From contig JABAKD010000005.1 of NCBI GenBank assembly GCA_012845835.1, positions 9,288,823-9,352,822 on the forward strand: a stretch of DNA of 64,000 bases, given 5' to 3'. A program made the translations under genes and the position numbers. Positions within the stretch are counted from its first letter, which is position 1; every line of letters starts with the position of its first letter. The notes under the pieces are model-generated. The model saw nothing but the letters and a program-made list of their open reading frames with translations, was not told the origin of the DNA and ran no database searches. Shown here in pieces: positions 464 to 63,283 of this stretch. This DNA is from Undaria pinnatifida. Lineage: Eukaryota > Sar > Phaeophyceae > Laminariales > Alariaceae.

Positions 464-625
464 CCCCAAGACGCGAAGAGAGAACTATCGGACGGGCTGC
501 ACGCGCTCGACAAGCAAGGAGACAAACGGCTTCCTCCCTCCAGCATTGTCACCGCACTCAAGCGCATGGGGATCGAGCTTCGCATGAAGCAGAGGGACGC
601 CGAAAAAGCTCTGCGCGTCTTTGAG
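464..625 (+). CDS. Exon 1 in window: degenerate EF-hand
   Basis: 54 codons, phase 0 in and out, between a CTGCAG acceptor and a GAG|GTAGGT donor. It reads PQDAKRELSDGLHALDKQGD... and ends ...KALRVFE. The loop DKQGDKRLPPSS keeps Asp at positions 1 and 5 but has Ser at 12, so calcium binding is doubtful. The reading frame enters from an exon beyond the left edge of the window. Confidence 0.7.
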
Positions 626-3600
626 GTAGGTATGCATACCACCCTTTGACGCCATACGCCTTACCTGATGCGCGCGGGAGCGTTATTTCATTCTACCTTT
701 TTACTAGGGCATTTCACTGATTATGACCCGAGGTGCGGTTTGAGTCGGGTCAGGAGGTGTTCCAACTCTCACGTGGCGGGTCGTGACTGGGTGTTGCTCA
801 AGTTTTTTATGAAATTTTGTTGCATTGAAGTAATTTCTCGACCACCATTAGTTTCTCGCGGCCAGGGAATGTTGTAGATCACTCTCTACTCAGTACAGTA
901 GGGCTGTGGTTAAAAGGTAAATATGGCATATTTTGGCCTTTTTACAGCTACAGTAGGTTTTCATGGGTTGGATGGCCTCGGGTTGTGACTGTGACGCTCG
1001 TCGGGTTCAACACTACTCCGACATGTTTTCCTTCCCCATCGAATTTGTTCTCGTCAAAACCCTAATAGTCTGATGACGATTCTTTTATATTTATTGTTGC
1101 TACTTTTTGGGAGATGCCGGTTCGTACTCGGATGGGACACGGAGATTCTGGCACGCGAGGCTGAAAAGGAGCCCCTGCCTTTGTTGCTGCCGTCGTCAAT
1201 TCGAAACCCGTTTCGCTCGAAAAAGCGTTTCCACACCCGAAGTAGACGATATCTGCCCTTGAACACCCCCCCCCTCCCGTGGTTTGATGCGAGCGTCCAA
1301 GAAAGAAAGCCACGGGGAACCAAGACTGGAAACCCATGTATGCACGGAGTCTAACATCCATCCCCACCTCGGGCAGGTCATGGTCTAGATCATCTACAGG
1401 AGTTGATCTAGTATCTGCCGTTATGGAATGCTGTGCAAGATCTGCACATAGAGAGCTCAAATCTAACTCAGAAAACACGTGCTAGTTTGTGCCGATCGCA
1501 CGGTTCCCCCCCGGTAACGTTACCTGTAGATCATACAGATCTTCCCTCTCGAAGTATCTAGATCATTACACGTGGGGATCAGTGATCCGTCCGACGTGTG
1601 CGTCCATTCCCGACCTCCCCCCCTCCGCACCAGCATTATACGGACGCGAGGGTCTATGGTCTTCAGACTACGACCATGCATTTTATGACTGCACCGCCCC
1701 CCCCACCTATCTCGAAAGGGATGCGAGGCAAATGTTAAAACCACGCAAGGTGAGCAACAAATGAAGTACGCCACCCCCCCCCTCCATGACCATACCCCCT
1801 TCCCCCGTGGTTTTATTTGAACGTCTAGGCCGAGGACACGTGTTCTGGTCGTCGAGAGGTAGAGTTCTCGTCGCTTGTTGACGCGGTGGGCAGAGCTTGG
1901 AGAGCGGAGGACCTCCATTCCAAACAGCACTCGCTAACCGGTAAGGAGCAATTGCCGCATACGCCAGCGTATACAGCACCCCCTCGTTTTTTTTTTTAAG
2001 GCCAATTTGCTCTACGCGACGGCCGGTATAGTGCAGACAAACGCCGAGCGACGCCCCCATGGCTAGACCTCGACATTTTTCGTGCCGCCACCATTTTCTT
2101 GTTGTGTTCCCCCCCCTTGGGTGTTGGACAACAAACATCGTTCACACGTCGTACAGATCACCGAGTCTCGCTTGATGATCCAAATGTTTCGGGGAAGATC
2201 TGTATGGTCTAGCTCATGATACCCGGTGGGAACCGTACGATCTCCATCATCTAGCAAACTCTTTCAAGGGTTAGATCTGTCCTCTTTATACACAGATCCT
2301 GCACGACATATCATGGCGGCAGCAGATGCAGAACCTACTGTAGATGGTCTATATGATCTATATGATCTATCTGTCCGAGGTGTCAAAGCTTTGAAATTCG
2401 TCCGAGGGTGTGTGATATTCTTGCGTGGTAAACGTTGAACCAACTTAACTGTGGACGGTACGCGAAAACGCACCAAAATCTTTTGTTCTGGCGAAACGGG
2501 TGAAATGCCCGAAAAAAGAAGATCCCTGCCTGGTGGTGGCACGTTTGCGCACAACAACCACCATAGTTGTTCGTCAACTAGCTTCTATCCCCTAAAATAT
2601 ATGGGGATGATTAGATAAGGCTTTCAATTATCGGCATGTTCCGCTCACAAACACCAGCACCGCCATACTTTTGTCAAATTTCGGACGGCCATCAGGGAAC
2701 AATAAGCTGGACGGAAAAGTGGTACGCCTCCAACGGGAGTTCCGCTCGATATCGACAACAAAGTTCACCAACCCGAAGACGGGGACCATAACCTACTCTT
2801 ACAAGATGGGCAAGGTGAGCTGGTGGAGGCGGTAAATAATCGTTTCTTTTCACAGGTCGGGTCGGGTCGGGTCGGGTCGGGTCGGGTCGGGTCGGGTCGG
2901 GTCGGGTCGGGTCGGGTCGGGTCGGGTCGGGTCGGGTCGGGTCGGGTCTGGTCGGGTCGGTGTCGGGTCGGGTCGGGTCGGGTCGGGTCAGGTCGGCTCG
3001 TGTCGGGTCGGATCGGGTAGGGTGGTACGACTCCAACGGGAATTCCGCTTGACGTCTACTACACACAAATTCTTAATCCAAACGTGGGGACCAAAACCTA
3101 TTTTTACAGTATGGGCAAGGTATGTTGATGGCGGTAAAATAATAAACAAAAAAAGTCCGTACCAGACAATAGTATTTTATATATGAAAATCTATACATTG
3201 TGTGATACCGAGGTACTTATTTGTTTGGGTCTTTCAGCTGTCCGAACGTTTGCTGTACGAAACGTAAAAACTTTATTTTACCCTCCTCACCAGTTCGGAT
3301 CTTTTTTGAAAATGATTCCTGCAGTATATGCGTTTCATAACTTTTGCCAAGCGTTAGCCGTTTTACCACTGCAAAAAACTCCCCACACTGTTTCCAAGTA
3401 TTTTTAGCTAAAAACGTGGGTGTCGCTCTAAGCGGGATATGCTGCGGGCTTGATGATATCCGCAGGTATTCCGCAAGCTTGATGAGGACGGCGACGGAAC
3501 GCTGACCTCGTTGGAGTTCAAGAGAGGACTCAGAAAACTGGGGATCGGGGACTACCTCGGAGAGAAGGATGTCCGCAGGTGAGCCACAATAAGTTTGTGT

Positions 3601-6600
3601 TGGTGTCTTACTCGGGGCTTTTAACGGGTCGGGTCACTTATCGCGGGTCCGATGGGATTCAGGGAAACCCGACCCGACCGATGAAGTTTGAAAATCTCCA
3701 GACCCGACCTGACCCGAATAGACCCGACCCGACCCGACCCTACCCTACCCGACCTGACCCGACCCGACCCGACCCGACCCGACCCGACCCGACCCGACCC
3801 GACCCGACCCGACCCGACCCGACCCGACCCGACCCGACCCGACCCGACCCGACCCGACCCGACCCGACCCGACCCGGAGGCTCCTCACTTGAGGAACGCT
3901 ATACCTCACCCCAAAAATAACTGATTTGGGGACAAGAGAAAGTTTTACCCCCTTGAAAATAATCCCATGGCCTAGGTAAACAACGAAATTAAATGTCGAA
4001 AAGAACGAAATGATCTCGACGATTTCGGGTTCAACAATCGTTTCAGTAAAAAAAAAGTTATACCTCTGTCGTAGCACGCGCCGCGTCATGATGCCGAAAT
4101 CTCCTCGCACCAAAACTGTGGCGCAGTAACCGCACGCCTAATCGGTCGACAGGACGCACTTCAGTGTAAACGAGGGCGTCACCTATCACGGTGTTCCCTC
4201 CCCCTCCCCCCTCTCACCTTCACTCCCGTTTGGCCGGATCCCTATCCTGACCTACTCTCAACATGATGTACATATCCAATTGCGAAGATCATCTTCAGAC
4301 ACGACTATGGCGAAAACACCACTCGCCGACTCGACCGACAGGGTGTTTTACAGCTCCTTCGACCGCGGCCTCAGCGGTAGTGTCGCCTATCACGACTCAC
4401 TCGCCCCGTTCCCCCCCCCGCTTTACTCCCGTTTGGCTCGACCCCTACCCCTACCCTACCCTCGACGTATTGAAGACATCCAGAAACATACCGGTAGCGA
4501 TCAGGAGAACTCACAGCTGGCGTTTTCGAAACAATTTCGCACATCAGACAGAGTCAGATCCCTATAACATGATTCATATGATATATGTCTTTCGGGGAAG
4601 ATAGATCCCTGATCTATGTGTGATCTGTATGGACCGTAGACGATGTTGCCGGGTGGGAACCGTATGAGCTGCATGATCTAGCCCATATTGCCTCTATTGG
4701 ATCTGTACTACACAGATCCTGCACAACGTCTTATATCACAACGACCGATTTAGGATATAGATGATCTGTACGATCCGTATCGTGATCTGCCCGATGTGTG
4801 ACGATGCTACGATAGAGGTGCGCCACTTTTTTTCTTAATACTACCCCTCATTTTGGAAGCTTAAGACCCCCCCCAAAAGCTGATCTGGAGAACAATCGAA
4901 ACCGCTACCGGATTGAGAAATCCCATGACCCAGGTACAACAACCAGAATCATGCGCAAAAATGACCGATTTCAGACGATTTGGGGTTAAGGAGCACCGTC
5001 AATCGGAAAACAAAATAGCTAAAAAAAGGTATACCTTATACCTCGATCTAGATCGTGGTCTGTCCGATGTGTGCGTGTCATTTTCATTACCAAAAAACAT
5101 CCCTGCCCAATATTCGCGCGTCGAATCGAATCAACGGACAGGATTTTCCGGTCCTTCGACCGCGCTCTCAGTGGGAGTGTCGACTACCACGAGTTCTGCG
5201 ACTTCCTCCTGCATGGGGCCGTGTCCGGCAAAACACGACATCACCACCGTCGTCATCAGCATCGTGCAAACCTGTATTCCTCAAAGGTCAATCACAACAA
5301 CGGGCACGGTTATTCGTCTAGCGGGCACAACAAGATGCCGCGCCGCCGTCGACAAACTCATTATCGTCGCCACGGACGAGGTGGCGGCGGCGGCGGCGGA
5401 ACCGATGACGGTTGGGGGGGATACGAAAATGATGGAAGCTGTTTCGGGTCTTCGGAGGATTGGGGAAGCAGCAGCAGCGAGGACGACGATTACGGCGAGT
5501 TTTTGTCTCCTGATCCTAAATTATCTGAAGCCCCCAATAATTTTATCGTTCACCTTCGCACTATTTGCCGAAGGCGGGAAAAAGAGAAAAAAGCAAAATT
5601 CCTACTTGATGCTGTTTTTTCAAAACAACTTTTATTCCGCTGTAAGACTTCGATGTCGAGTGCGCTTACCTCGGTGGAAGTGGGGATGGGCAGTTAAACG
5701 CTATCGCAGCTGAAAACTCGTTTTTGGGGACTAATTACTTGGAATTAGCATAGGGAGGGGTTCGGGGCTCTAAAGGGGTCAAGTTACCCTCGGGTCCAGT
5801 CACTGAAATAGGTACACGGAGTACATATGTAACATGTACTTTTATTAGCCATTGGCCTCAGTATTCTTTCCGAGTGTAGTATATAGGTAGCATTCATATC
5901 TCCCCCAACAAAAACATGGGACTAGGCAGTTAGACGAAGCGCTTCGTGAAAGCCAACAAACAGTACTGATACTCTCCTTTTTGACGCCCTTTTTTTTCTT
6001 TCTTTCTTACTTTTTTTCATCGTTTAAAGGCCCCCGTGTAGCTTACGGGTGCGGCCGTGGAAGCAGGGGTAGGCTGTTTAAGCCGTCCCCGGATCCCGTC
6101 ATTAAAATTGGCATTACACCACTTACACATTTCCCACCTGCTTGCCTTCGTGTCTGCGCTGGTGTATTATTTAGGCAGCATTCGTCTCCCCGAAGTAACC
6201 ATTAGCTTGAAAGAGCAATGCGACTTCGTTTTATAAAGGTAGCAGGTAGACGGGCATGTGATGGGATGGGGGGGGGGTGGTGCAAGGGCGGCAGGTGGAT
6301 CGGATAGATGCCAGCCCAGAAGCAGGCCCAGAAGAAGGGAGCAAACTATCGTTGCGTATTTTTTTGTTTGGTTTGTTTCCCTTGGTTTTCTTGTTAGTTT
6401 TGCGGGGTTTTTTTCACCAGTGATCGATTTTGCCGGATGGTGGCAAACATAATAATGGGTTGAAAAAAATCGTCTCTTGCTGCCGCTTTTGTCGCTTTTG
6501 TTTTTTGCGTAAAGGGTCTGATGTGGAGTACGGGTACGGGTACGACAGCGGAAGCGGGGACGGGCTGTTCGAGCCACCGCCGGATCCGGTCATCGACGCG

Positions 6601-9600
6601 GCGCGCGATGCGATGGTACAGTTCGCGCCGTCCGGGGAGCGGCAGCAGCGGGTTCGAGACTACCTCCGGGGAAAGGATAAGAACGCCTCCGGAAAGGTGA
6701 TTTACACGACGCGACCACACGTAACTTAGTAGGGCTGTGAGTTGGCCTGGCCGTAAGTCGTTGGCTAGATAGATATCATTCGGCTAACTATTTTACGGTT
6801 AGTCGCAAGCAGTAAGTTTTTGTGGATTTCTGTGTGATTGCGTGTGACTGGGCGTGTCTGTTGCCCGATCTGTGTCGTTTAACGCCTTTGCAACTGGCAA
6901 CCCTTTTTGTAATTACTTGGATTTTAGTATAGGGAGGGATTGTGGAGTACCTAAAGGGGTTAAAGTTTTCATTCGACGCGAGTCGACGGGGAAACAAAAT
7001 GATGCTAAATTATTGTCGCGATGAAAAAAGAAAGCGCATAACTGTCGCAGTGGGGAGGGGGGAGGAGGGCCCGCTCTGTGACCCCGGATCTGAGTTACTA
7101 CTGGGAGGGAGGGAGCGCGAGAGTAGTGCCAAGATACTAAAGGGGATGAAGAGAGCAAAAAAAAGAAATGGAGACCATGTGTCGCGCGGGAGTTTCAACG
7201 AACGTGAAGGGGATGAAGAGAGCAAAAAAAAGAAATGGAGACCATGTGTCGCGCGGGAGTTTCAACGTCGGCCACCAATGCTGCATGGTGTCGTATCTTA
7301 ATTCAATGCGTGCTACGATACGATAATGGGGATAGCAAATTTTAGGCTTCATACTTTCTTCGGGATGGCGTGGTGACGGGGCTCCTTAGCCGAACATCAT
7401 CAGAATGTCTTTCTTGTTTCGTAACATTGTTTCGAACGTTGTATGCCTAGACTAGGCCATGACATTTTTTCAGCTGGTTGCAGTTTTTTTTTTTTCTCAA
7501 CTTTTGCGTTTGGATGAGATGTAGAGCTCCTTGATTCATAGAGCTGTGAGTCGGCAGAATTTCACGACTAACAATTAAGCGGCAGATGCCATTAGCCAAC
7601 TAACCGACATTAGTCGGCAACTCGGCTGGAGAAGCCTGAAGCGAGCTGATGGCCAGCCGACTAGCCGACTTAAGTTAAGCGAGCGAAGCAAGTCAAATCA
7701 GCTACCGTGGCCCCGGCCCAGAAAATACAAAATTCGTATCGCATTGTTCAACAACCATTCCTGCAAGTACGGAAAACTCAATAAGTCGGATAGTCGGCAC
7801 CTCCGGCAAAACGACCAACTATTAGTCCGACTAATAACTACAGCTCTATCAGTCCAGGAGCCCCAAGAAGGTTGTACATGCGCCCCTACTGTACTATCAG
7901 CAGCACGCGTCATTTTCCAATTTTTCCTTTGTTCGTTCTTTTTTTTTGTTCTGTTTCCTTTCCGCGAACAAAAGATGCCGGAGAGCAAATTCCACCAGTT
8001 CCTGCGACGCTCAGGGGTCGAAAACACCCTCGGCAGCGACGGAACGTGCGCGCTGATAGAGAGGATGGACCCTCGAGCTACCGGGTACATACGCTACATC
8101 AAATTCCTCGATAAGGTATAAGGGATATACGTGCATTGGAACCGCTTGTGGGGCGCCGTACGTGGATGAGCAAGCAATAGGTTATATATATGTATTTAAA
8201 ATAAGAAACCGGTTACGGAGTGTCATACGTAGACGAGTAAGCTATGTATAAGATAAGAAACTGCAAGCGATTCAGTTGTTTCATGCGTTTGTTGATTCAC
8301 GTGCTCGCGTTTGTAGAGAGGACGGATCCACGAGCTACCACGTACACATCCTCTACGTCAAATTCCTCGATTATATATATAGGAACCGGCGTTAACCACC
8401 CATGGAAGGGGGGGGGGGAGGGGTACTCGTTTCATGCATGGCCGTAATCGTAGCATGGCCATAAACCCTCGCATCCCTATGATGCTGGGACGGAACACGC
8501 CGGGTTTCGCCGACTAGGCAGGCATCGCGCGCACCAAGCGCGAAGCGTCGTGAGGTGTTTGGCGTGTCGCATGAAGAGCGGCGTACTGCATCCTACTCAG
8601 ACACCACTTGCGAGGCAGACTTCGGCACCTTGTGGGTACTTTCTTGCATATGGATGACAGCTTCTAACCGAATAATATGTTTTCTGGTATGGCCACCTCC
8701 AGAGGGGGGCAGAGAGATTCACGCATTTGGCATGATTCATTCGTAATGCCATTGGTGACGATTCTGCAGAACTGTTAACTCTACGTACGGGTAGCGGTGT
8801 TTCTCTAACGTTAACTCGATGGTGTGTTTGGGAGAATGTCGTTATGCATTAAGACGGAGGGGACCGTCGCTCTTATCCATTCGAGCTGAAGGCAAAGGCT
8901 TGAATGCAGAGTTCGTTGAGCGAGAGCCAGGGGTTGAGAGACAGAGGTTAAGAGAGATACCTGGTAGAGGTTAAGATATAACTAGAGAGATAGCCACAGT
9001 AGAGAGCGAAGGAGACAGGGGTCATCTTGATTCTTCTAGCTCCAACTTTTTTTGTGCGTTTAAAGCTTTCATTGACTTTTTGTATGTCCGTGATGTCGAC
9101 CAGGTTTTTGACAAGGCCAAGTCTCCGGATGACACAGCGGCAGCAAACGAACCCATCAAGGGCGAAGATGAGCCTAAGGCGGCGGACACCACCCCCATTC
9201 TTCATCGCATTCAAGAGGCGGTTCTTCAGGTACAAAGAGCAAGCCTTGTTCCATGCTAGAATAACTGTTTTGATATATTCTTCCACGCCAGAGTCATTGG
9301 AGGCTGTCTTATGACCATGGACTACTAGATTCTAGCGTTGAGCTATTGTGAGAACGACAACAACATCTCAGCAGCAACTCTCAAATCGTCCATTTTGACA
9401 ACCTTGACGATGGCAACTTTTACATAGTGCAAAATTGCGCTCGAATGTGCCATCGCAGTCCCTCGTCAAAAACAGGCCGTATCACGGACTGTTCCGCCTT
9501 TCTGATGACACGGGATCGGGACTAGTAACGCTGGAAGCCCTCAAGCACACCCTCAATATGATGGGGGCGAAGATAACACAAGACGAGGCTCAAATGGTCG

Positions 9601-12600: not shown

Positions 12601-15600
12601 CTCGAAATAAAAACTAGTTTTTCGGTGGCATGGGTAGAGATCCTTATGAGAGGAGCCTTGAGAAAAAAAAACAAAAAAAAAGAGTCACCGTACGGAAGCA
12701 ATGCGCCATCTTTTTTCCGGGGCTTTTAACTCGGGGGGCTCTATACCTCTGTCCGAAAACCTGACATGGGGGGGGGGAGGGAGGGGAGTTCTACCCGATG
12801 GATAACCGCATGGCCAAGGTGTACCACGAAAATATTCCAAGAAAATAGTGAAAATTCCGACGATTTTTGGTCAAGAAACCCCCGTGATTCAGAAAGACGT
12901 TTCACTCCGAAGTTGATACCTTTATCGTAGCATGCGTCAGTAACCTTCCTTGCGGTCGGGGCGCGGCCGAAGCTTCTGAGGTTCCCAACACGAGGAAGCT
13001 CAGCAATCTCATCCGAAACGTGACTCCGAAGGCCTCTCAATTGCGCACTCCCGACCGACGCTTTCATGCGCTACAGTGCTCAGCCCCCGGCCGGAAACGC
13101 CGGGCCCATAAAGTGCAAACCCTACCCTCAATCGCGTAATCCGACCAACGCTTCCATGCGCTACAGTATTTAACAGTCCTGAGACAAAAAATACACTCGT
13201 AAAAAAAACGATCAGACTAACCGATAGTTTGTTTCCTCGCTTGAGGAGCTCAAACCCCCGGCCGGAAACGCCGGACTCATAAAAGTGCAAACCCTACCGC
13301 GGGATGACTCAAGAGCGCAGACGCGGGGGGCTACGTTTTAGAGGCAGCACGTTTCGTCTGAAAAGGTTTCTGACTGACGGAGCTCCTTAACCGGGAATCG
13401 TCGGGAATATCTAGCAATTTCTCGTCGTGTACCTCGGCCATGGGGGTTTTTCGTCCGGTCTCTATCAGTTTTATTTTTCTCCAAACCGGTTTTTGTAGGA
13501 GAGGTCTTAAGCTCCCAAAATTGAGGGGTAGTATTAAGAAAAAAAAGTGGTGCACCTCTTTCGTAGCTAGCGTCTGCACCTCTCCTGTAGTATGTGTCTC
13601 GGACGGGTCAAAGCAGGGCCCAAATCGCAGGGGTTAGGGTTTTACCGTTGTGATGAGGGAAAACGGCAACCTCGCGATCCAGCAATAACGATGGCGCGAG
13701 CTCGTCAGTCACGCGGCGAGAGGGCTTGTCCTGGGTCCTCGCGGAAGATGGGGAAGATTACGCTGGCAAGATGTGGTGAACGGTTTCGAGTGCCGCCCTG
13801 CGATTGCGGTTCTTGTTTTAACGAGCAACTTGGAGTAGTTGCACATAATAAGAGGTTGGGTCTATGTTTTGTTTGACTCTCTTTCCTGCTCCTACAAATG
13901 TTCTCACGTGGTCATGTGAGTTTGTCCCCAAACCCGGGTGTGCGGTTCTAAGACAGTAAAGATAAACATCACGAACACGGAATGTATTTTGCTGGTCCCC
14001 TTGACTATCACCAGGGTGCGACAGCGCGTGCTGGAGAAGACGCAACTGTGGGGGCCCACCTTCAGTCTCTCCCGCCAGTTCGAATTCCACGACCCAAGGA
14101 ACAGGTGCGGCGCGCAAACCCTTTTTGCACACGAGCCCAGCAGGTGCATCGTTGATAAAAATATCATTCTTGGTCTGTTAACGTAGTTGGAATGAGCTTG
14201 TTGGGTGCCATTTGCTATTTCTTTAGTTTTTTACTGCTTGTAACAGTAGAGTTTCCCACTTATTCGCAAAATTGGTTGGCGCCCACAGGCTGTGTACGAG
14301 GCGAACGGAATTATCCTTGCATTGGTTGAATAAATTTGGTTGGGCTACGGTTACGGTTAGATATCATTTAATGTGTACGTTAACTATTTTCTCGAGTAAG
14401 TGATGAGGTACTCTCGCTTGTATTTTTTTTTGTGTGTGTGTTTTTTCGAAAACTCTCCTAATGGATTCCCAACCATGTCGGCGTTTAGATTTTCGGCTAA
14501 TCGTGTGCTCTATAAACCATTGCGTTCATTAAAAGTTGACCAAATAAAACCAACAATCCCGTCCCTCTAGAAATTACCAGCTAAACAAAACACTTTTATC
14601 CCTCTACAGCCCTAGCCTTAGTCAACCCTTACTTTCCTTCTATTGTCCATGTGTGTGCATCCAACTGCAACCGGAACGGTGACTAACTGCTACTTTTTTT
14701 CTTCTCGGCGATGATGGAGCAGCTCGGTGTTTATACTTCCCTCTGCATAGCCCTTACATTCCTAAAACTAACCATTCATGCATGCTAAGACAGAGGTGTC
14801 ACTTTCAGGGTGAAACGCTTTCCTGAAAGAGGGAGGGGGGCGCTCCTTAGCTCCCAAAATCGTCGTTAAAAAAATCGTGTTTTTTTTGTTCGGAATAGTT
14901 TTCGTTGTCGTATTCCTCGTGTTTTTTTTGTTCGAAATAGTTTTCGTTGTCGTATCCCTTGGCCATGGAGTTATTCATTGCGGCAGCACATTTATTCTCC
15001 ACCCCCGAATCGGAGTTTGGGCGAGGATACATGTAGGTCTTGAGCTACGCAAAGGCGAGGAGGTGATCGGACAAACAAAAAAAATGGTGCGTCTCCGCCG
15101 CAGCATGCGTAACGCGTGCTACGATAGAGGTATACCTTTTTTTGGCGAACTTTTTTCTGAATGACGGGGCTCCTTAACCCGAAATCGTCGGAAATTTCAT
15201 CACTTTTTGTTTTGCATGATTTTCTCGTTGTGTACCTAGCTTGGCGATGGGATTTTTCATCCGGTCTATCTAGCGGTTTTATTTTTCTCCAAAATCTGTT
15301 TTTGGGGAGAGGTCTTAAGCTCCCAAATTGAGGAGTAGAATTAGAAAAAAAAAAAGTGGAGAACCTCTACCGTAGCAAGCATCCCGCCTCAACTAACAAA
15401 TAAGCTCAACCCTTCACGAGTAAAAAACGAAAAATAACCAGTTGACTTAATTTATTTTGTTCGACATTTTTTCCATACCCCTTAGCTCAACTTACCAGTT
15501 TCCATATGTTCCATCTGTCTGCAAAGGGGGATGGTGACGGTAGAAGATTTTTCTTCGGTGATGGAGCAGCTCGGTGTTTACCTCTCCGGACAGGAAACAG

Positions 15601-17935
15601 ACCACATCAGACGCCTCTTCGACAGGTACTATTACTGCTAAACGTTATTTTCGTCCGCGTTTGCATATCGCCGAATCATGGCTTGCTTGCTTCTCTGGTT
15701 TTTGTGTTCGCGATCCGCGTTGTATGTAGAGAGTGATCAAAAGCATCTCTTTGACACAAAAACTTTAAAAAGCCAATTTCTCAACCCTCAAACTTTAGTC
15801 TATATTATTCCAAGCGTCTTGTCCTTTATAAAGAAAGCGACAACACTTCAAGAAAAAAAAAATTACCAGTTGAGTCATCCCGCGCTATATAGAGGTGCAG
15901 CAGATTCTAAGAAATTTTCTCACAAGGAGCTCACTATTGTTTTTCACCCGACGCAACACAACTTCAAATAGACATTCGTTCGCGCGCAACCCTGACCAGC
16001 ATTTGTATGTGCTGGACCAGTCCTGAATAAAACACATATGCTCGGTAATATTATCATACTAACCGATGCTTCCCACGCTTGAGGAGCTCAACCGGTAAGG
16101 TATACCGTTTCTTGGCTCAAAAAGTACCACTTTTACCGTGGCAAAAGAGCCTTCACACGGTAGGGGTGCAGCAGCATAAGTCCCTGAGCTCCTCACACGA
16201 GGAAACTCAATATCTCACCCGATACTGCATGACTTCGAAGGCATTCGTTCGCACAACCCAACCAAGCTTTTACGCCTTAGTTCCTAAAACAATATATATA
16301 TATGCACTCGTGAAATTTCTTCATCAATGACTAACCGCTAGTTCCTCACTACTCAATCGGACACAAGTACATTTGTCAATCCAACAACGGCAACCCCCTA
16401 GCGTGGGACGACTCTCATGACCTTGTTGATGATTCCAGGCTATTGACAGAGGTTTAGACGGAATACAAGAGCATGGCCTCGTTTGTGCTGAAAATAGTGT
16501 AGGACACGCCCTGCCTTGCATAATAATTCCAGCCTGGTCGCAAAATAAGAGATTCTTAACTGGCGTCGCGAACTGTACCAGGAGCACCGTGCTACAGAGT
16601 TGGCCCCTTTATAACTGACCACTAGTAGTCTGTAAAAATAAGCCACGTTTATGAAGGATTATCATTGTAGTTGGGAAAAATAGCATATTTTGACCCAGAC
16701 TGGTACAATGTTCTTGGTGCACCAAATGTTTCGATTTTGGGTGGGATCACTTTTACAGTAGTATTTTGCGAAGGATAGCGTCTGGCAGAGGTGATCTCGC
16801 GAAGAACGAGGTTTTCTCGGAAGCGATGAACGTGCCTACGTTGTTGTTGTTGTTGTTGTTGTCGTTGTTCTCATACTAGCGAGTTTCTAATATATTGTCC
16901 AATTTTTGGATCATAGCTCTCGGAAGTTTGCGGCGTTGCGTGGACCAATCCTGCAGGAGCGAACAGTCTCCCATTTACCATTGCCAATAAAAGTATCCCA
17001 TGATAATAAAAACCCAAGATGTTTGTTTTTCTTAGAAGCTAAAAATATATTTAAAGCTGAAACACTGTTCTCGGTCTGAAACTATCTATCAATTCATTAT
17101 CGGCATAATCTAGTCCGCGCTCACGACATAATATGTGGTACAGTACAGAAACTCCCCTCTACTATGCTGGTACGTGCAAGCTGAAAAAATCGCACTATAG
17201 CGGCAATCAGAGTCACTCCGCCCACGTCCACTGCTGGTTGTTCCCATCTGTGCCAAGCGATTTCACAGGCGCTAGAGTGGGAAGCAGGCACTGCTCAACC
17301 GGCACTATAGCGGCAACTGGCACTGCTCTACTCGTTGTTCCCATCTGTGCCAAGCGATTTCACAGGCACTATAGCGGGAAACCGGCATTAATCAAACGGC
17401 ACTATAGAGGGACCACTGCTACTACTACTGTACCTCGAATGCGAAGACCCAACCTTTCTTTGCTTTATCTTCTCTAAACCTTGGCGCACAATCGGCTGAC
17501 CAATCAGGTACGGGGACGGAGCGATTGACTACACTGATTTCTGCCAAAGCATAATGTTCGATCGCCAGGAAATGGAAGCGCTGGCGGGAAAAATCAACTC
17601 CCGCTTTGCAGAACTCAGGTGGGCTTTGTCGCGCTTTGAACGCTCGGTGTTGACAGCGTTTCTGTCCGTAGCTGGTTAGGTCCATCGACGTTGATAAGGT
17701 TGGCTTGTGTGATTTACCAGCAGAGCTTTTTCACACACTGGAGAAACGGTTAACGCGCGGCGTGCACGAGACGAAGTTTTTTTCTTCTATCCCCGAGCTC
17801 GTTGTTTTGAGTGTGTTTGGGGTAAGGCTTGCATGAATCAAAGCTTGTGTCAATCAATCATCTCGTTTGCCCGTGTAGTTGGTTGGTTCGTCGGCGTTGA
17901 TTGGCTTGTGTTGGTTTAATTGGCTGACTGGCTAA

Positions 17936-17989
<54 letters not shown>

Positions 17990-26900: not shown

Positions 26901-29900
26901 CTCGTCCCCTCCTCCGTTTCTGTTTCTGTTGTTTCTTTTTTCTCTCTATTAATGTGAAGGTTGCCAGGGAATACCGGTGAAATTCAACATCTTGTTCTAT
27001 ATCCTCCGGCGGATGGGGCAAAATAAAGCGTAAGCTCACCACACTCCCACGCATTGTCATACATGTGTGTCAATTTAACTCAGTTGTATTAGCAATCCAG
27101 CACCTAGCTGGCGTATCCTTCAGTTTCCGTGTTAGCGACAGCGCGAGTTGTCCATACCGGCGGTCACCGTATTTTAAGCTCACAGAAAAATTAATCGCGT
27201 ATGTCTAGCTAGCCCATGAGGTTCTGTATGATTGATTGCTACCGCAGAGTCGCGTAGTGCTACGACGACGATTGAGGTAGAGACGAAACCCATTTTCGGC
27301 AGCAGGGGAAAAAAAAAAGTGAGTGACGTAGGGAGCTCCTTAACCCAAAACCGTCGGATTTTTCGTCTTAACCCAAAATCGTCGGATTTTTCGTCTTAAC
27401 CCAAAATCGTCGGATTTTTCATTTTAACCCAAAATCGTCGGATTTTTCATTTTAACCCAAAATCGTCGGATTTTTCATTTTAACCCAAAATCGTCGGATT
27501 TTTCATTTCAACCCAAAATCGTTGGATTTTTCATTTTAACCCAAAATCGTCGGATTTTTCATTTTAACCCAAAATCGTCGAATTTTTCATCTTAACCCAA
27601 AATCGTCGGATTTTTCATCTTAACCCAAAATCGTCGGATTTTTCATCTTAATCCAAAATCGTCGGATTTTCATTTTTTTGCGCAAACACGCCTCGTTTTT
27701 TATACCTGCTGTAGACCAATGGCATCGTTTCTTCGGGGGAGAAAACGTCTAATTTTCTCCCTCCAAAGATCAGTTTTTTTGCTTGAGAAGATAGACAGCT
27801 CCTCGAGTGATAAGCCCCAGAAACAAACATGGTGAACCCACGAAGATGGTGCACCTCTACCATAGCATTGCGCCAGAATAGAGATACTTACACACATCGA
27901 CGCTCGGAGACAGCGGGCGCGAAAACGGGTTTTCGACCCCCGAGGTCGGGGATCAACGGATCCCAGGCTGAGGCCGAGATGGTAGACTAGATTTTTCGGG
28001 ATTTCCCGATTCGATCACGGTCTTCACGGATCGATCATTCCATAGATATATCTGTGTATGGAAATCTCTGATGCGTGGCTTTCTGGGCGCTTGCTTGGCA
28101 GGGGTGGGCGGGCCGCGGTAGATGGCAATGGATACGATGGCATCCGGGGGGCGGGCAGCGGGCCGGTCTTGGCGAGGGACAACGTGCAAAGGTAAGCTAC
28201 ACTAGGACGCGTTCTTGGCTGAGCGGCTCATTCTGAGTGAAAAAGCAGTGTTTGACGCTCTGATTGATATCGTATTCTTCGAACATGGAGATCAATTGAT
28301 GTGCTTGGATTGATATTCGTTAGTTAGCTTTTGCCACCACCCCTACACATTTCGTTTGCTTGGACGGCAGAAAATAATGTTAATGCACCACGTATATATC
28401 CTCAATTCGTGTGCATTCAATATCTTCTCCCCGAATCCCGAAAACATTTTTTTTTTTCCCGAGGTCTTCTTTTTTTTTAGAATGTTGTGAGTTCTCAAAC
28501 GTTGAAAGTCGTGCGGTACATTGTCGAAATGACAAGTGCAGAACTGTAGTCAATATATATGAATTTATTGTCGCCTTAGCTATCAATTATCGGGATAGCA
28601 GTTTTCTTGTTTTTGCAATATAATTATCGCCTTAGCTATCAATTATCGGGATAGCAGTTTTTTTGTTTTTGCAGTATAATTATCGTCTTAGTTATCAATC
28701 ATCGGGATGGCATAGTTCTTGTTTTTGCAGTATAATTATCGTCTTCGTTATCAATCATCGGGATAGCATAGTTCTTGTTTTTTCAACATACACAAGTACG
28801 TTTCTTTTCGTTTACCTAGGCCATGGGACTTCTGTCCATCGGGTTTCCCCTTTGATTTTTCTCAAAATCTGTTTTTTCTTTTTTTCTGTTGGGGTACAGC
28901 GCTTCCTTACCCGACAAAAAAAAACTCCGACAAAAAAAGCGTGCACTTCCCCTACCTTCGATTGTATCCATACCGTAACAGTTACCCTGTATGTTTTTGT
29001 TAGCCTTCGTGCGGGCTCAGGTGGTACACAGTGGAGTGGAGCCATACGCTACGGTACGGGGGTCGGTCCCTTTTATGGGACCTCTTTTTTGGAAGTGGCT
29101 CGGGCTCACTCGCGCGAGTGACGCCCCCCCCCTATTCCTCTGCGGGCTTAACCTTTCGTTGCTGCTCGTTGGTTGCCGTATGAAACCGCCATCGAATGGT
29201 TGGCTAACTGCGCCGCGCCAAACAAACCACCTCAAGCATATCTTTTCTAAACGTTGAGGTACAGAGTCACGCGGGCGAGTGACTGAACAAAAAAATAGCA
29301 GGTGAAGCAAGCTGGTACCCACACTCCCGTAGCTACGGTCCCCCACACGACCAACTACCGCCTCGGTTTTCGATTACCCACGCATTGGAAACGAACAAAA
29401 AGACGCATCGCAAAAGAAGTATATACACCTTGTCCGACAAACCCACGCATTTGAAACGAACAACAAAACGCATCGCAATAGAGGTAATATACACCTTGTC
29501 CGACATAAAACAACAGAAATACTTGCACCAAGTGCGTTCAGCACAGGATATCTAATGAAAAACATAAACACTGATCCAGGCCGGGCGGCTTTCGTATCTA
29601 GAAAAAATGGTGCGTTCCACACCAACTTCAGCGAAACGCCTCCCGAATTTCGTTTTTCCAGCGCTTTGACGGGTCTTGATCCGGCCCACGGGTCGGATTA
29701 GGAGGTTTTCAAGACCTCGCGGGTGATCAAGTCGGGTTGGGTCAGGGGGTGTTTGCAATCTCACGGGTCGGATCCCGTCGTTGCAGGAGGCTTTCAAATA
29801 TCACGGGTCGGGTCGAGTCGGGATACTCTGACAAGATCCGTGATCTGACCCAGGAAAAGCCCTAGGATTTTCCTGTAAATCTTGGGTTTCTTTTTTTCCT

Positions 29901-32900: not shown

Positions 32901-35900
32901 CATAACATCATCATAACATCATCATAACATCACCATAACATCATCATAACATCATCATAACATCATCACAACATCATCCTAACATCATCATAACATCATC
33001 ATAACATCATCATAACATCATCATAACATCATCATAACATCATCATAACACCATCATAACATCATCATAACATCATCAAAACATCATCATAACACCATCA
33101 TAACATCATCATAACATCATCATAACACCGTCATAACATCATCATAACATCATCATAACATCATCATAACATCATCATAACATCATCATAACACCATCAT
33201 AACATCATCATAACATCATCATAACATCATCATAGCATCATCATAACATCACCATAACATCATCATAACATCATCATAACATCATCATAACATCATCATA
33301 ACATTATCATAACATCATCATAACATCATCATAACACCATCATAACACAGTCATAGTATCCCGTACCCTTAGTACAACCCTTTTGGATCCCGGGTATATC
33401 GAGACCAAAGAAGGACATCATGACAAGTGCGGTGCTATCCACCGTCTCCGTCAGCGCGCAGCAGTACGAATGGCGTCATCATGTGCATCTTGATGTATTG
33501 CTGCAGTGCGAATGAGATCGTGTCATGCATCTTCGACGTCAGCTGTGAGTTCGACGGTTGTAGCGTCGCTACTCATCTTTGCACGCTGCGTTGTTGGTAT
33601 TTTTCCTGCAGGGCGAATGGGGTCATGTCGTGCATCTTGGTGTATCACTGGAGTGCGGACACGAAAATGTATCACCAATATCCAAGCAGGCCGGGTTGTT
33701 TCGAACGGCCGATGCTGTAAGCGCGAGACTATCAAACTTTGCTGGCCAATTTTTCCCTGTGCTACAGTCGAGTCTCCGGGGGGTCGCTTTTATTGGTAAT
33801 TTTTTCCCTGTGCTACAGTCATGTCCCCGGGGGGGTTGATGCCCCGTCATTCAGATAACCCTTTAGACGGTGACTGCTTCCCCTATCGCAGCAAGAGCCC
33901 GTGCTACCGTAGGGGGTACAGTACCTCCGAGTGGCCCCACACATAGGGATGCAGCGGAAGTTTCTGCAAGCTCCTAGCTTGAGGAGCTCAACATCACCCA
34001 TCATCCATCATCATCCATCATCATCCATCATTGTCCATCATCATCCATCATTGTCCATCATCATCCATCATCATCCATCAACATCAACATCAACATCCAT
34101 CATCACCCAACATTATCCATCATCATCCATCAACATCAACATCAACATCATCCATCATTATCCATCATCATCCATCATCATCAACATCAACATCCATAAT
34201 CATCCATTGCCACCCATCATCATCCATCATCATCCATCATCATCCATCACCATCACCCAAAACATGACTTCGAAGGCATTCGGTCGCACCACCCGACCAA
34301 CACTTCTCTCTCTATATATATGTTCCTAGAACCGATAATACATACCTGGTACTCGTGAAAATTATCAGACTATAACCGGTAGGGCTTTCGCCACTCGAGG
34401 AGCTCACTCAACCGGCCAGAAACGTTTGGCCCAAAATAAAGTGCAACCCCTTTAAGAGCCCCAAAACCCCTCCCTAGGCTAACTTCAAGTAAATTTGTCC
34501 CCCAAAAAGGGTGTCCAGTTGTAAAGGCGTTAAGAAGTGCCGTCATTCAGAAAAAATTTCAGCCAAAACCAGTTCTAGCCGTGTCGTAGCATGCATCAAC
34601 CGACACACGGTTAAACGCCCTTACAAATGGAAACCCTTTTGGGGGACAAATTTCCTTGAAATAATATAGGGCGGGATTTTGGGGCTCTTAAAAGGGGTTA
34701 AGACGGCGATATCCTGTTGTTGAAAGTGTCCCGCGACTGAATATTTAACTTCGGTAAGTGTTTGGGTAAACCGGCGAGCGGGGGTATTATTTTTGACCAC
34801 ACGGTCGATCGGATAGGGCACGAAGAGGAAAAGGGACGCGAAAAACAGAAAAATGGTTCGAGATCGGAACCAAACCAAGAATGATACTATTAATAGTAAT
34901 ACGCGGGAAAGTAGGCACACAAGGGAATTATTGTGTGCATGCGTAGGCTTCCTGTTTTTAAAGTTTATTTTCCCTTGTTTTTTTTTTGCTCTCTGGAAAT
35001 GCTGGCGGTCACGTTTGCACGTCTGAAAAGGGGGGGGGGGGGTGATGTGGATACCAGACCGTATCCCCTAGATCGTACCGCCTCGTTATCACTATAATCC
35101 TTCAAGGTCATCCTGGCTCCTCGAAGGTGTTCCCACGTTGCTGACCGTCGAGCGTGCGGTTACGCATATTACCCACCTCCGTGTGTCTCCACACCTCCAT
35201 CTTGAGGGGGAGATTGACCTTCCACGGGCTACGGGACTGCCGTCCCTCAGTAATAAGAACAATTATAACAATATCACCACCACCACCACCAACAACAACA
35301 CCGACTTCGTTGTTGACCTCCTGCGGTGTTTTGAAACACCGAGTTCACAACAAACATTGAGTCAGTTTTCACCGGTTCGCAATGCACGACGTAAACACAG
35401 TTTTTTTTTCAACAAGACCGCATTCCTTTCTCCGTCCATCTGCACAACTTTTCGTTCACAAGCACTGGACGAAAAAACGTTGAACGAGCCCATCTTTCTC
35501 CACCTGTACAACGACAGGTTTCCTCTCTCCCACCGGAAGCGACAATACCTTCGCCGAGGATACAGTACGCCTCCCCCCCTCCCAGCCCCAGCCGCATCGC
35601 GAACCGGTGTTCGCCTGACTCTCCGTCGAGAACAGGACCGCGCATTTGGGGCTGCCACACGCCTATAGCCAGGAAAGGATCGTTGTCTATTTCTCGCAGC
35701 ATGAGGTGAGATATAACGCGGAAAATGTTTATTTTTCTAGATTTGAGGTTAAATGAATAGAGTATGACAACGTTGCCAAGAAAGGGTGATTGTCTATTTC
35801 GCGCGGACCGAGGTGAGATATGACACAGTCAGAAAGAAGACAGTCTCTCCTTTTTTAGTTACGCCTAGCCCAACTTATCCCTCGAGGCGTGATGAAGTTG

Positions 35901-38900
35901 CGAGTACGTATGCTCCCTTAGTTGCGGTTGAATTCGTCATTTCTCCAAGCTGTTTTATTTTGCCTTGCGTGAAGCGTGCACGGTTTGGTGGATGTGTCCG
36001 GTGTGCTTCTCCGTCGCCTTAATACCTTAAAGAGACTCTTCTTGAGCGAAACGATTCTTCAGGGTAGATACGCCCAGTCCAACTTTTTTGTCTGTCGACG
36101 CAAACCAACGTGATCATGCTTCGATCCGCCGACGCGATAATGCTCCCTCTAACTCTGTTTCTTTTGGATACATCGTTTATTCACTGTACCGTCTCTCGAT
36201 CGCAAGGTAGAAATTAAGCGATGTCTTGAAATCAGCCTTACAAATAAATAGTTGTTTTCATGCCCATGCCTACGAATTGGGTATTCTCAATCGTCTCCCT
36301 TGCATGTCGACACTAAATGAATGATATACCAGGCAATCGTTTTCTCGCTAATACCACTACGTTTTACACCTGCGTGCAGCGGGCACGGTTGCTGGATGTG
36401 TCCGGTGTGCTTCTTCGTGGAGAACTCGTCCAAGAACAAGCTGTGCGAGATATGCACGGCACCAAACCCAAGTAAGCATGTAGCCGTTGAATCGAACGGA
36501 TGAGATAGCCGCTGAAGCTAACGCCGCGCAGAAGGAGCTTACGTACGTCTTTTTCCTACTGCGAAAAATAATCCCACGACAGACTGGTTCTACGATAGCC
36601 CCCGCCAAAACCAGCGATTTCCTGTGACGAACGTTTCATAGCTGCTCGACACGAGGAAGGATGCCATTTTTTAAAAGTCTCCGCAAATTGTTTTGTGTGC
36701 AAAGGTCTATCGAACGGTGACGTCGGGGTGTCAACGGACAGCGTATTTCGGGAAATTCGAACGGGAGCTGGTTTCAAAACCGGCGATTTCGTTAGAGACT
36801 ATTATGTTGGGGGGGGCTACCGTAGAACGACTTACGACACATGCTACGACTTGTTTTCTTCTTTCTGAGGCTTCTTCCTCACATGGAGCGCTCTACATGT
36901 TACCCAAACTCTAATTTTTCAGTGAAACAGGAAAAGCGCTACCCGATTGAACACTACCCATGGCCTTATTAGGTGTACCAAAAAAATATCGTTGCCAAAA
37001 AAAAAGGATAATTTTCAGACGACGTTTGGGCTAAGGAGCCCCCGGCGTTCGGAAAATACTTTAGCGCAAAAAAACAATGCGACACTCGGTTGCAGCGCGC
37101 GTCCCACTCTAAATCCCAGTAGTTTGTCCCCAAAAAATCCGGTGCGGTTGTGAACGGGTCATTTAGCTCCTTCGCGGCTTCGGAGGAAAAAAAAAAACGC
37201 CCAAAATAAGAAACAAGCGGCGATTGGTTCGTCTCCCCGACGAAGAAGGAAACCCGGGTTCGCGCAGCTGGGGGAAGGGGCGTGTGTCTGAACCAGCCGT
37301 GTAAGGGGCTGTGGAAAAGACACGTGCCCAGTCAGCAAGCAGCATGGCGGTACTCGTACTGCTACCTTCTGCACACTCTTCCGTCGTATAATAAAACCGC
37401 TTGGTGAGATTGCAACCATCTTTGTTTTTTTTGGGGGGCGGGCGGTACACTGCAATCAAGATGTAATTCAGGGCTTTTCACGGGGTCGGATCACCGCTCG
37501 CGGGTCGGGCCGGCCCAGGGTGATACGACCCGACCCGACCCGTGAGATTTCCTAGACTCTTCCTGACCCGACCCGCGAAACTGTGAATACCTCCTGACCG
37601 GACCCGGCTCGATCCGCGAGATGTTGGAAACCTCCTGACCCGATCCGCGGAACGGATCCTGACTCGTGAAAAGCTCTGGGTATAGCCAAATCCAAAAGGG
37701 CTAGCGGTATATATATATAGACTGGTTGCCCCGGTGGCGTATCAGGTTATCTTCGAGCCTGGTATGGGTCAGTTTCGTGAGTTCGAGCCCCGCCGAGTGC
37801 ATACTCGTTTAAATTCGTGGGAACTTTTTCTTGAGCACAAATTGACTTGCGGAAAACGCGAGAGCGTGAGTTAGCAAAACACTCGATGAAAAATCGACGA
37901 GCAGTGGGACTGCTGAACCCTATGCGCGATAAAAATTGAAGGCAAGAACCGGGGGGAAGAAGGGACGACACCTGTGACCACGGCTTGTCCAGAAGCTGGA
38001 AAAGTAGAAGTGTGAAAAAAAAAAAAAATAGACTGGTTGTACGATAGTGCCCCCCCCCAAAAAAAAAACAACAGCGATTTTCTTTAACGAACGTTTTCAT
38101 GGCTGCTCGACACGAGGAAGGATACCATGGAAAAAAAACATATTTAATGTATTTTCTTGTTTGCAAGGGACGATGGAACGATGGCGTCGGGGTAGCAAGC
38201 AAGGGGCAACGCAATTCAGGAGGAGGATATGGCCGGCAGCTGGTTTTTCAAAAACCGGCGATTTTTGTAAAAGTAAAAGTTGAGGGGTGCCACCGTAGCG
38301 ACTCTACGCCGTACCTGGATATCAAGATGTAATCAAGTGGGACGCGCGCTGCGAAAGGGGTACGAGTATTACAGCACTTTTTGGCTGAAAACGTTCTCTG
38401 GATGACGAGCTTGCCTTCTTAGCGCAGAATCGTCCGGAAAAAAATGCTCTCTCCAATATTTTTCGTTGTAAACCTGTTATAATAGGCCGTGGGGTTTGTT
38501 CGACGGACACAAAATTTTTATTTCCGCCCCCCAATCAATATTGTGCGGGGTGGAGAACCTTAACTCCGCACAAGGGGAATGGTTGCCTCAGGTAAAGTGT
38601 GAATATGGTAAGGCACCCACGAGGCAGTTTCATAGTCCTACCCATTACTGTCTCTGGAGTGGCCACACCAGAAAACAAAGTAACTCATTGGCGCTGTCAT
38701 GCATGAGCAAGAAAGTAGGCACAAGGTGCCGAAATCCGTCTTATGAGCGGTTCTAGTAGGATGCAGTTCACCCTTCATGCGACTCCCGAACACCTCACGG
38801 CGCTTCGCGCTTGGTGCAAGCAATGTCTACCTGGTTGGTGAAAACCCGACGTGCTCCGTCCCGGCCGAGTAGGGATGCGAAGATCTATGGTCATACGACT

Positions 38901-41900
38901 ACGGCCATGCACAAATTGAGTACACCCCCAATCAGCTTTTGGGTATGTTGTAAAGAGCTCCTCCAGGTGAAGAGCCTCGGGGAAAAAAAACTTGTGCACC
39001 TATACAATAGCATGCGCCGTGGGTACAGTGCGGGGGGTCCCGAATAGTGCCGGTTTAGTAGTGCCACTGGTCTCTACAGTGCCGGTGAAATCGCTTGCCA
39101 TGACTAGAACCCCCTACGAGTATAGTAGCTCTCAGTAGTAGTCCTCTCCCCCAATAGTGCCGGTGCCCTGAATAGTGCCGGTATATTCGGCTGGCACATA
39201 CCAGCACTAACGGGACCCCCCCCCCCCCCCCCCCGCCCCCGCCTCCGCCCCCCACACTGTATGCTTAAACAATACTCAGTCATGATTACGTCCATGAACA
39301 TTTCCGAAAAGCCGAACCACGAACGGTCACGGACACTATCGATAATCGGAAATTGACTTTTACCGACGAGCCATTGTTTCGCTTCCCCCCCACAAAAACA
39401 GGACACAAGGATTCTCAGGTGCTTCAACAGTGCACCAACTGCACTTTTGCTAACCCGGAGCTATCGGTGGAGTGCCAGATGTGTGGCGAACCCCTGCCCT
39501 ACGGACGGGCAAGGCGCAGCGTTAGGGTGAGAAGAAAGAAAGAAAGAAAGGAAGAAAGAAAGAATGAAAGAAAGAAAGAAAGAAAGAAAGAAAGAGAGAA
39601 AGAGAAAGAAACGCCGAGCCTGTGCTGTATCATACCAGGTACATCACACGTCTCCATGCACCTTTTTCAACCCCTCAAAAAACAAAAGATGGGATGGCAG
39701 CCTGATAAAAAGGAGATGATGTGCGTGACAGCGGTAGGGTAAGAAGAAGAAGAAGAAAAGAAAGGCCGAGCCTGTCTGTGCCTTACAGTTGATCACTCAC
39801 CCATTTATGGTACATTATGCTCCTCAATCAAACCTCACCCCCTCAAAAAAAAAAAACTGTGGGGTTTCATGTAAATATGGCGGTTTCGCCAGCCCGGAAG
39901 TATTGGTGGAGTACCAGGCATCACTACTACGCAAAGCGTATTATATAACATGGATGTAACCGTTTTGCCAACCCGGAAGTACTGGTGGAGTGTGCCAGAT
40001 GTGTGACCGTGCCAACCCGGAAGTAGTTATTTTTTCACTCTGAATGATTCTACGATAGCCCCCACCAGAGCCGGCGAATTGTTTAACGAACGAACGTTTC
40101 ATGGCTGCACGACATGAGGAACGATTATACGAAAAATACAATCTTCCTATGTTTTTGCTTGCAGAGGACAGTCGAATGATGACGTCGGGGTGCCAACAAG
40201 GGGCACCGTATTTCAGGAGATACGGCCGGGAGCTGGTTTCGAAACCGGCGATTTCGTTAGAGAAATGTTGGGGGGGGTACCGTAGTACGGCTCCTCTCTT
40301 TTGAGCTCAAAACGTTTTTCTCGCCGACGGGGATTCCGATAGATCACGATCTAGATCATCTATCATTCACACCTTGGACAGATCACGATCTAGACCAAAG
40401 ACGTCGGTTGACGTTCTAGTTTTGATCCATCAAGGCGTGTTTGGACTTGTCATGCTAGCTTTAGTGTGTGGAGTTCCTTGACAGCTGTCCGTCAAGTCCG
40501 CCAAGGGCCAAGAGCGCCGTCAACCCACATTTTTTTTCATCTATTAATTGACGATTCACATCTCGGACAGATCACGACCTATATAATCTAGATCACGTAG
40601 GTCAATATGTTGTCGCAGATCCTGTATCTGCCGTTGTGCGATGTTGTACAGAAGCTGCACATACCGCTCTGTCCAAAAAATATAAGCGGCCTTTGGACAT
40701 TAATCTTGAAATAAAATGTCGGTTATATTTCCGGGCAGAGTGGTGAGAGTATTGTTGTTGTTGTTAGATGATGCCAGCAGTATGGCTCCCCCCCCGTGTA
40801 ACATGAGCTGTTGATAGAATTCGATGCGAGTCGACGAAGGAAGAAATCGCCGGAGCCTCCTCGCGATAAAAACGAAGGCGCGCGCGTATAGTAGTGAGGA
40901 AGGGGAAGAAGAGCCTGCCTGGTGATCCGGGGTCTAACTTAGGTATAGGGAGGGAGAAGGGGAAAGAAAGTGCGAAGATAGAATCAGGATTCGCAAAAAA
41001 AAATAATAAATAAAAAACAAAAAAAAAGACCAAGCAGATCTTCCCCTGGATAATTTAGATCATCAAGTGGGGATCGGTGATCTGTCGGATGTGCATTTTT
41101 TCATTTTTGTTTTCATTTTTATTTCTAGGATGCCTAGTAATACTCTGTATTCGTACTCCTTCCGATATTAAAGCGGAGAAAAAACAAAATACACCACCTA
41201 CCATACATTTGACAGAGCAGTATAGTGGAAACTACAGTGATAAATAAGATATGATGTTAGATCTAGCTCAAAATTCCCCACCTAAAGTAAAAATACCAAC
41301 ACCAACCATTATGGTGGAGAAAAAACATGACATTTTTTTTTTTAAACAAAATAATAGGACCCCTCCCATTAAAAAACTCACCTACGTAGTATATTACAAG
41401 TACCAACAACGCAGCTTGCAAAGACGAGTACTGACCGGAAATTCGCCGAACTCACGGCTGACGTCCTTAAAATATTTTTATCAAATAGATAGCATCTTCA
41501 CATTTGGCGTCGTCGGCGCGGTAATCGATCGATATTTTACCCCATTCGCTCAGTAGGTAACATTAGCGTTGTTGACAGGATAATCGATCGACGTTTTTCC
41601 CAGTTAACACTTTCACATTTGGCGTCTTCGGCAGGCAATTGATCGATAGTTTACCTCGTTCGCTCATTAGGCAACACCTTCATATATATCCGGCGTTGCC
41701 GGCGCGGGAATCGATCGATATTCTACCCCGTTTGCTACACCTTTACATTTGGCGTCGTCGGCACAATAATCGATCGATTGTTCACCCCGTTAGCTCAGGA
41801 GGTAACATTTTCACATCTGACGTCGTCGACACAGTAATCGATCGATGGTCTACCCCATGAACTCAAGAAGTAACATATTCACATTCGGCGTCGTGGGCGT

Positions 41901-62962: not shown

Positions 62963-62964
62963 CC

Positions 62965-63190: not shown

Positions 63191-63283
63191 TATATATAAA
63201 TATATATAAAATCATTCCTTGAATATCGAGTCATTCCTTGGTGTCATGGACTTTGGTCAGGAGTTTTTTGTCTCGGCCTAAGT

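Follow-up and report, generated by a model that had tools for sequence, protein, structure and literature searches.

Short local duplications have reportedly been surveyed as doublets by Thomas et al. 2004, as close direct repeats by Achaz et al. 2001 and as tandem-duplication insertions by Messer and Arndt 2007, and these surveys are said to concern near-identical copies of under 100 bp. The copies that we describe here, which lie beside the exons of a brown-algal gene and are referred to as ghosts, are like them in being short, near their source and mostly tandem or nearby, but they are old and decayed, and they are still legible because one member of the pair is an exon under selection. A second relative is the repair-mediated duplication of Pace et al. 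(2009; PMC2671141), which, in the parts of that report and of the others cited below on which we draw, covers 50 to several hundred bp, has its source within a few kb and sometimes includes exons or splice sites. Tandem cases were excluded there, inversion was possible and partial exon/intron donors were just 4/824, whereas the copies described here are nearly all direct and obey a side rule, in that the splice site carried by a copy goes with the flank of the exon on which the copy lies. Tandem and degenerate exon duplications (Ivanov and Pervouchine, 2022, PMC9013439; Exonize, PMC12343006) likewise place exon copies, degenerate ones included, in introns of the same gene, but the tools as presented in the cited sections aim at whole or near-whole exons, whereas ours cover an exon in part and never match it at more than one splice site. 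Exon shuffling in the brown-algal ROCO genes (PMC11378527) also involves within-gene exon duplication, but whole 72-bp phase-2 LRR exons stay coding in the cases described there, whereas here broken copies occur in genes that are not built as repeat arrays. Duplications of the short local, repair-mediated, and tandem or degenerate exon types have all been described before, as the portions cited of PMC2671141, PMC3188502, PMC9013439 and PMC12343006 attest, and the mutation type that we favor below is itself already known. Our literature searches turned up neither a description of brown-algal half-exons that are dense and decayed nor one of the density of half-copies over exons or of the side rule.

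The DNA analyzed is a window of 64,000 nucleotides from Undaria pinnatifida, in which positions 464..39526 of the plus strand represent part of a multi-EF-hand gene of brown-algal type, 21 exons of which are supported by homology (Table 1), the 5' part of the gene lying beyond the window. The exons were set without reference to the ghosts, by tblastn with five orthologues from Hapterophycus canaliculatus, Laminaria digitata, Pylaiella littoralis, Phaeothamnion confervicola and Chrysoparadoxa australica, and were used in place of an initial gene-finder run that over-predicted (118 segments); their boundaries were placed by eye at splice consensus, the ends of exons 5 and 17 being uncertain. The protein assembled from them matches an unnamed H. 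canaliculatus protein and a partial L. digitata one, and further those from P. littoralis, P. confervicola and C. australica. The tblastn identity to L. digitata is 75–100% in 10 of the 12 best exon matches and 62 and 68% in the other two, which extend into intron. EF-hands were recognized by Pfam in both orthologues scanned, and a RanBP2-type zinc finger was seen in the Chrysoparadoxa orthologue below the Pfam cut-off. This long EF-hand protein gene (464–39526) is conserved from brown algae to Chrysoparadoxa and Phaeothamnion and is without a name in the records found. Exon 17 (30495–30564) has an apparent GC-AG donor, which a myosin exon from another contig (stretch L036, 2463–2576) may share, and a search of the window against Rfam gave no match at gathering score.

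Table 1. Exons of the EF-hand gene and their decayed copies, in window coordinates.
Feature	Position	Strand	Description
Exons 1–7	464–625, 1829–1940, 2696–2814, 3466–3578, 5142–about 5496, 6515–6696, 7975–8115	+	
Exons 8–14	9104–9229, 9459–9683, 11467–11651, 14015–14104, 15527–15625, 17508–17618, 19779–19881	+	
Exons 15–21	23734–23864, 28102–28191, 30495–about 30564, 31143–31221, 35518–35705, 36380–36471, 39402–39526	+	
Ghost of exon 3	3022..3143	+	donor side, downstream; score 54; exon part 75/95 identical, one frameshift
Ghost of exon 5	4327..4395	+	acceptor side, upstream; score 35; exon part 41/51
Copy of the surroundings of the exon 5 ghost	4178..4278	+	pairs with 4382–4482; 70.6% over 102 columns, E 3e-8
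Ghost of exon 6	6003..6102	+	acceptor side, upstream; score 32; exon part 52/73, no frameshift
Ghost of exon 7	8299..8384	+	donor side, downstream; score 42; exon part 59/72, two frameshifts and one stop
Ghost of exon 12	14626..14733	+	acceptor side, upstream; score 27; exon part 43/54, three frameshifts
Two ghosts of exon 15 with intron parts	23917..24166 (23917–24001, 24084–24157)	+	donor side, downstream; scores 43, 30, 29; self-BLAST 81.7% and 72.4%
Ghost of exon 17 (weakest)	28993..29044	+	acceptor side, upstream; score 23 vs. inverted 14; absent with exon-only query
Ghost of exon 19 (not listed earlier)	35775..35824	+	donor side, downstream; score 30; exon part 30/39
Ghost of exon 20 (zinc-finger exon)	35958..36014	+	acceptor side, upstream; score 38; exon part 36/39, one frameshift
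Two exon-internal ghosts of exon 21	39884..40005 (39884–39917, 39963–40005)	+	downstream; scores 20 and 27; match without splice site

When each exon with 60 bases on either side was aligned to its own surroundings (±2 kb, tandem arrays masked, both orientations), a decayed direct copy was found for 10 of the 21 exons, at spacings of 107 to 1473 bp and with best scores per exon of 23 to 54. Inverted copies above background were found for 0/21 exons, the top inverted score over all of them being 15. All nine loci at which a reading from the sequence only had pointed to decayed copies are thereby confirmed, and the ghost of exon 19 is additional. The pairs 2707/3022, 4342/5142, 6022/6515, 14679/15527, 23734/23920 and 24087, and 35966/36380 are clear; so is 7975/8300, limited to the 3' part of the exon, and so are 39402/39884 and 39963, which are exon-internal only. 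The 29004/30495 pair is present but weaker. The copy noted at 4142 matches the surroundings of the 4342 ghost and so is a duplicate of a duplicate, as are copies at exons 15 and 21. Arrays of a 5-base GGTCG/GACCC unit lie at 2855–3023, 3701–3876, 11060–11117 and 30248–30328, and the first of them occupies precisely the interval that separates exon 3 from its ghost, as though it had expanded at the duplication junction.

Could these matches be chance similarity, low complexity or an assembly artifact such as merged haplotypes? With exon-only queries nine of the 21 exons still stand out (score 21 to 47, against a maximum of 17 when each exon was tried on both strands at 20 other places in the window), but exon 17 falls to 12 and its ghost vanishes, and some matches elsewhere are of low complexity (stretch L023). 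The absence of inverted copies, the ceiling of the distant controls and the recurrence of such copies in other genes (below) speak against chance, and for the set as a whole we reject chance and low complexity on the inverted, distant and segment controls. Merged haplotypes are judged unlikely from divergence: identity between exon and ghost is 438/545 in exon parts and 148/193 in intron parts (aligned stretches, one ghost per exon), and a divergence of about 20% in the exon parts is far above the heterozygosity within one kelp, which is given for Undaria as 0.48% in the part of PMC7058681 cited here. We regard an explanation of this kind as scarcely credible.

The sequence-only reading had also held that one copy of each pair keeps a clean frame while the rest decay. 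In 7 of the 10 ghost-bearing exons a ghost carries a frameshift (and in one exon a single-base stop); the ghosts of exons 5, 6 and 19 are free of frameshifts in the aligned parts. Mismatches between exon and ghost number 39/216, 39/219 and 54/219 at the three codon positions, and 43/128 changes are synonymous against 25% expected if random, a pattern that fits a neutral ghost together with some synonymous change in the live exon. At residues that differ, all five orthologues match the live exon far more often than the ghost, the agreement with exon, ghost and neither being 27:2:5 (P0001), 23:6:1 (P0002), 21:2:20 (P0005), 24:5:17 (P0006) and 26:1:4 (P0007), which supports the earlier proposal that local duplication recurs and that one of the copies is under selection. 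At exon 15 the two ghosts jointly hold four L. digitata residues that are missing from the live exon (V in both, A and M in one, S in the other). Most simply, the ghosts retain the residues of the ancestor that the kelps share, but this is not certain, since at two of the four sites Phaeothamnion has the residue of the live exon.

The same data bear on whether the ghosts might be functional alternative exons, either mutually exclusive or cassette. Several have one good splice site, those of exons 5, 6 and 19 lack frameshifts in their aligned parts, and duplicated tandem exons often turn mutually exclusive, according to the part of PMC9013439 cited here. Against this, none of the 10 ghost-bearing exons of the gene has a ghost with both splice sites, and the frameshifts in seven and the preference of the orthologues for the live copy point the same way. 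Alternative exons are judged unlikely from splice sites and frames, and on the sequence we would call such a function very improbable.

Close direct copies are not confined to this gene or to exons. When the window was compared with itself after removal of arrays, there were 22 direct and 0 inverted pairs less than 500 bp apart at E<=0.01. Twenty random 10-kb stretches, sampled at 700-kb steps along the same contig (C52), held 79 direct pairs within 1 kb and 3 inverted ones, all but one of the 20 stretches having a direct pair, compared with 28 direct and 2 inverted in the first 60 kb of the window. On other contigs the ratio of direct to inverted was 16:0 in 29.5 kb (L029–L033) and 24:3 in 24.5 kb (L034–L036), all three inverted pairs lying in L035; these counts are of BLAST matches, and a single array may count several times. 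Pairs less than 1 kb apart (107 pairs) have a median match of 107 columns and a median spacing of 287 bp. Hence the duplication process is special to neither the gene nor exons, and the idea that exon-intron units are what is duplicated is not borne out, since close direct repeats are equally common in random stretches, other genes have half-copies of the same sort (below) and no ghost of this gene has both splice sites.

Close pairs might also arise from transposable elements or other dispersed families that have captured exon pieces. Dispersed repeats are abundant in the window and some close pairs of the random stretches are members of such families, but among pairs more than 2 kb apart in the window inverted equal or outnumber direct ones, unlike the close pairs, and exon sequences score no higher than 17 against distant parts of the window. 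On the orientation bias we reject dispersed repeats as the cause of the close direct pairs, and we consider it highly improbable that they account for the ghosts.

The same phenomenon was found in other genes of the genome. Among 16 myosin-domain exons on four other contigs, 7/16 have a direct copy and 0/16 an inverted one at score 22, a threshold raised from 20 after an inverted score of 20 had appeared (at 20: 7/16 direct, 1/16 inverted). These 16 are all the matches within four stretches, out of 75 listed genome-wide; the first stretch was examined before the other three were retrieved, and the queries had ±80 bases rather than the ±60 used in the window. The gene in the window was chosen because of its ghosts and the myosin exons were not. 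Predicted exons in other stretches, which we use as supporting evidence only, the predictor giving 47 segments against 15 in reversed decoys, have a direct copy in 14/47 and an inverted copy in 3/47 cases at score >=20, and in 8 of the 14 the match includes a splice site. Some of the predicted exons belong to ketol-acid reductoisomerase, PetC and WDR35, and in each of these a half-copy lies where the side rule would place it; for the reductoisomerase, seven exons were predicted, one of them with a ghost. In L036 (2463–3229, reverse complement coordinates) a myosin exon end is followed by six more matches downstream within 650 bp, which form a decayed half-exon array.

The arrangement of the copies around their exons follows the side rule. 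Ghosts that carry an acceptor (exons 5, 6, 12, 17, and 20) all lie upstream of the exon and those that carry a donor (exons 3, 7, 15, and 19) all lie downstream, that is 9/9 exons with a splice site in the match, while exon 21 is matched exon-internally. The rule holds in 8/8 informative exons of the window, exon 19 being uninformative since its mirror position would fall in an exon; the nearest ghost of exon 15 is uninformative for the same reason and the second is informative. The rule was noticed in the window and afterwards tried on the other sets, where it holds for 7/8 predicted and 7/7 myosin exons (14/15, one-sided p 5e-4), giving 22/23 over all informative cases (p 3e-6). The exception is a low-complexity predicted exon (stretch L023), and one agreeing predicted exon (L017, + strand, 6679) lies opposite a coiled-coil reading frame and is doubtful. 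The side of the myosin copies was called by the end of the domain match, with plain splice sites in 5/7 and unclear ones in L036 2463–2576 and L033 2510–2815; one myosin exon (L036 5898–6086) has an extra exon-internal copy upstream and a donor copy downstream.

We propose that frequent small head-to-tail tandem duplications, leaving half-exon copies that are silent and decay neutrally, are the best explanation of the ghosts, and we consider this probable. Such duplications would strike introns, other DNA and exons alike, and a breakpoint inside an exon would yield a new copy that takes in the exon only in part, along with a single splice site and the intron next to it. The side arrangement must follow from a tandem duplication with one breakpoint in the exon, because the copy still joined to the remainder of the exon is the live one. 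The half-exon would probably go unspliced, and thus be silent and drift, while selection would maintain the intact exon, so that an exon-ghost pair would diverge more slowly than an intron-intron pair and be recognizable for longer. Exons would in this way serve as dating marks of a general process. We infer that tandem duplication was the first event and that subsequent insertions and deletions parted the copies; candidate triggers are slippage, end joining and unequal exchange.

In favor of a tandem unit, the spacer is shorter than 60 bp in 33/107 pairs, and in spaced pairs it also matches the outer flank directly in 17/71 and inversely in 0/71 (score 20). Against it, match length is near the spacing in 9/20 pairs at 60–67% identity versus 2/41 at >=78%, the most similar pairs being presumably the youngest; array masking accounts by eye for some of this low contiguity of high-identity pairs, but not for all. 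The spacers of exons 6 and 20 have weak further matches at other offsets only (288 vs. 485 and 209 vs. 404). Repeats and arrays make up 51–55% of the spacers of exons 5, 12, and 17 (43% in the gene overall) and none of those of exons 6, 7, 15, 19, and 20. Contiguity of the units is supported in part, and a purely contiguous-unit model is not confirmed, as the most similar pairs are mostly spaced and the spacers of exons 6 and 20 match weakly.

An alternative is spaced capture, in which a break or stalled fork leads to the copying of DNA from close by and its insertion away from the source, through repair-mediated duplication by synthesis-dependent strand annealing or through template switching. 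That many high-identity pairs are spaced, and that no counterpart was found of the 347-bp spacer of ghost 20, would agree with this, as would the match lengths and distances, which resemble those of the human repair-mediated duplications in the cited parts of PMC2671141 (mean 162 bp, most within 5 kb) and fall within a source distance of about 5 kb and a length of 50 to about 600 bp. However, inverted copies are nearly absent here, whereas those parts of PMC2671141 include a captured exon in opposite orientation. A copy inserted apart from its source could land on either side, an expectation that we derive from the model, and the side rule, first in 8/8 and then in 14/15 cases, is not expected under it. 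We therefore regard spaced capture as rather unlikely.

Exons appear to be better represented in such pairs than introns. A local direct copy was found for 16/52 exon segments against 22/230 single-copy, ghost-free intron segments, although the segments overlap by half and the p value of 2e-4 is optimistic. A simulation with a slowly evolving exon copy predicts a 1.57-fold excess versus the threefold observed, a shortfall that counts against the proposed explanation. The model may oversimplify, or duplication may strike exons, or their copies be retained, more often than is the case for introns. In this gene, which was chosen for its ghosts, 284/2909 exonic bases lie in ghost matches of at least 80% identity, compared with about 2% of exonic bases in human and 0.08% in fly by other methods, as given in the part of PMC9013439 cited here; the density over exons looks high, in a comparison that rests on figures from differing methods.

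How far does this process contribute to the gene itself? The earlier suggestion of a source of new EF-hand exons is unsupported for this gene, as no ghost has both splice sites and the order of the exon-encoded blocks is that of the Chrysoparadoxa and Phaeothamnion proteins. A contribution to its length is plausible, recognizable close direct pairs making up 8.6% of the first 60 kb of the window and 8.2% of the random stretches, against 1.0% and 0.5% for inverted pairs. Intron lengthening other than by transposons is an open question, and here one type of mutation is traced in 10/21 and 7/16 exons. Since selection holds the exon copy, the direction of every pair is known and its other copy is largely neutral, so that in brown algae it becomes measurable how often small tandem duplications arise and how much they add to intron growth. 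Close to half of the coding exons of this lineage may carry a decayed partial tandem copy, with local tandem duplication a leading route of intron growth, a generalization to which we give somewhat less than even credence. If true, half-exons would be a genome-wide fossil record of known direction, live copy versus neutral copy, and each exon in turn could reveal the rate and age of duplication and the codons that it had before. For annotation, gene predictors and homology searches may meet exon-like half-exons.

Other features of the window include an 11-base satellite of about 100 copies at 32223–33347 and a 75-base array at 45115–46230. Two open frames on the minus strand, at 26644–27069 and 62582–63211, resemble by eye pieces of non-LTR retrotransposon proteins.
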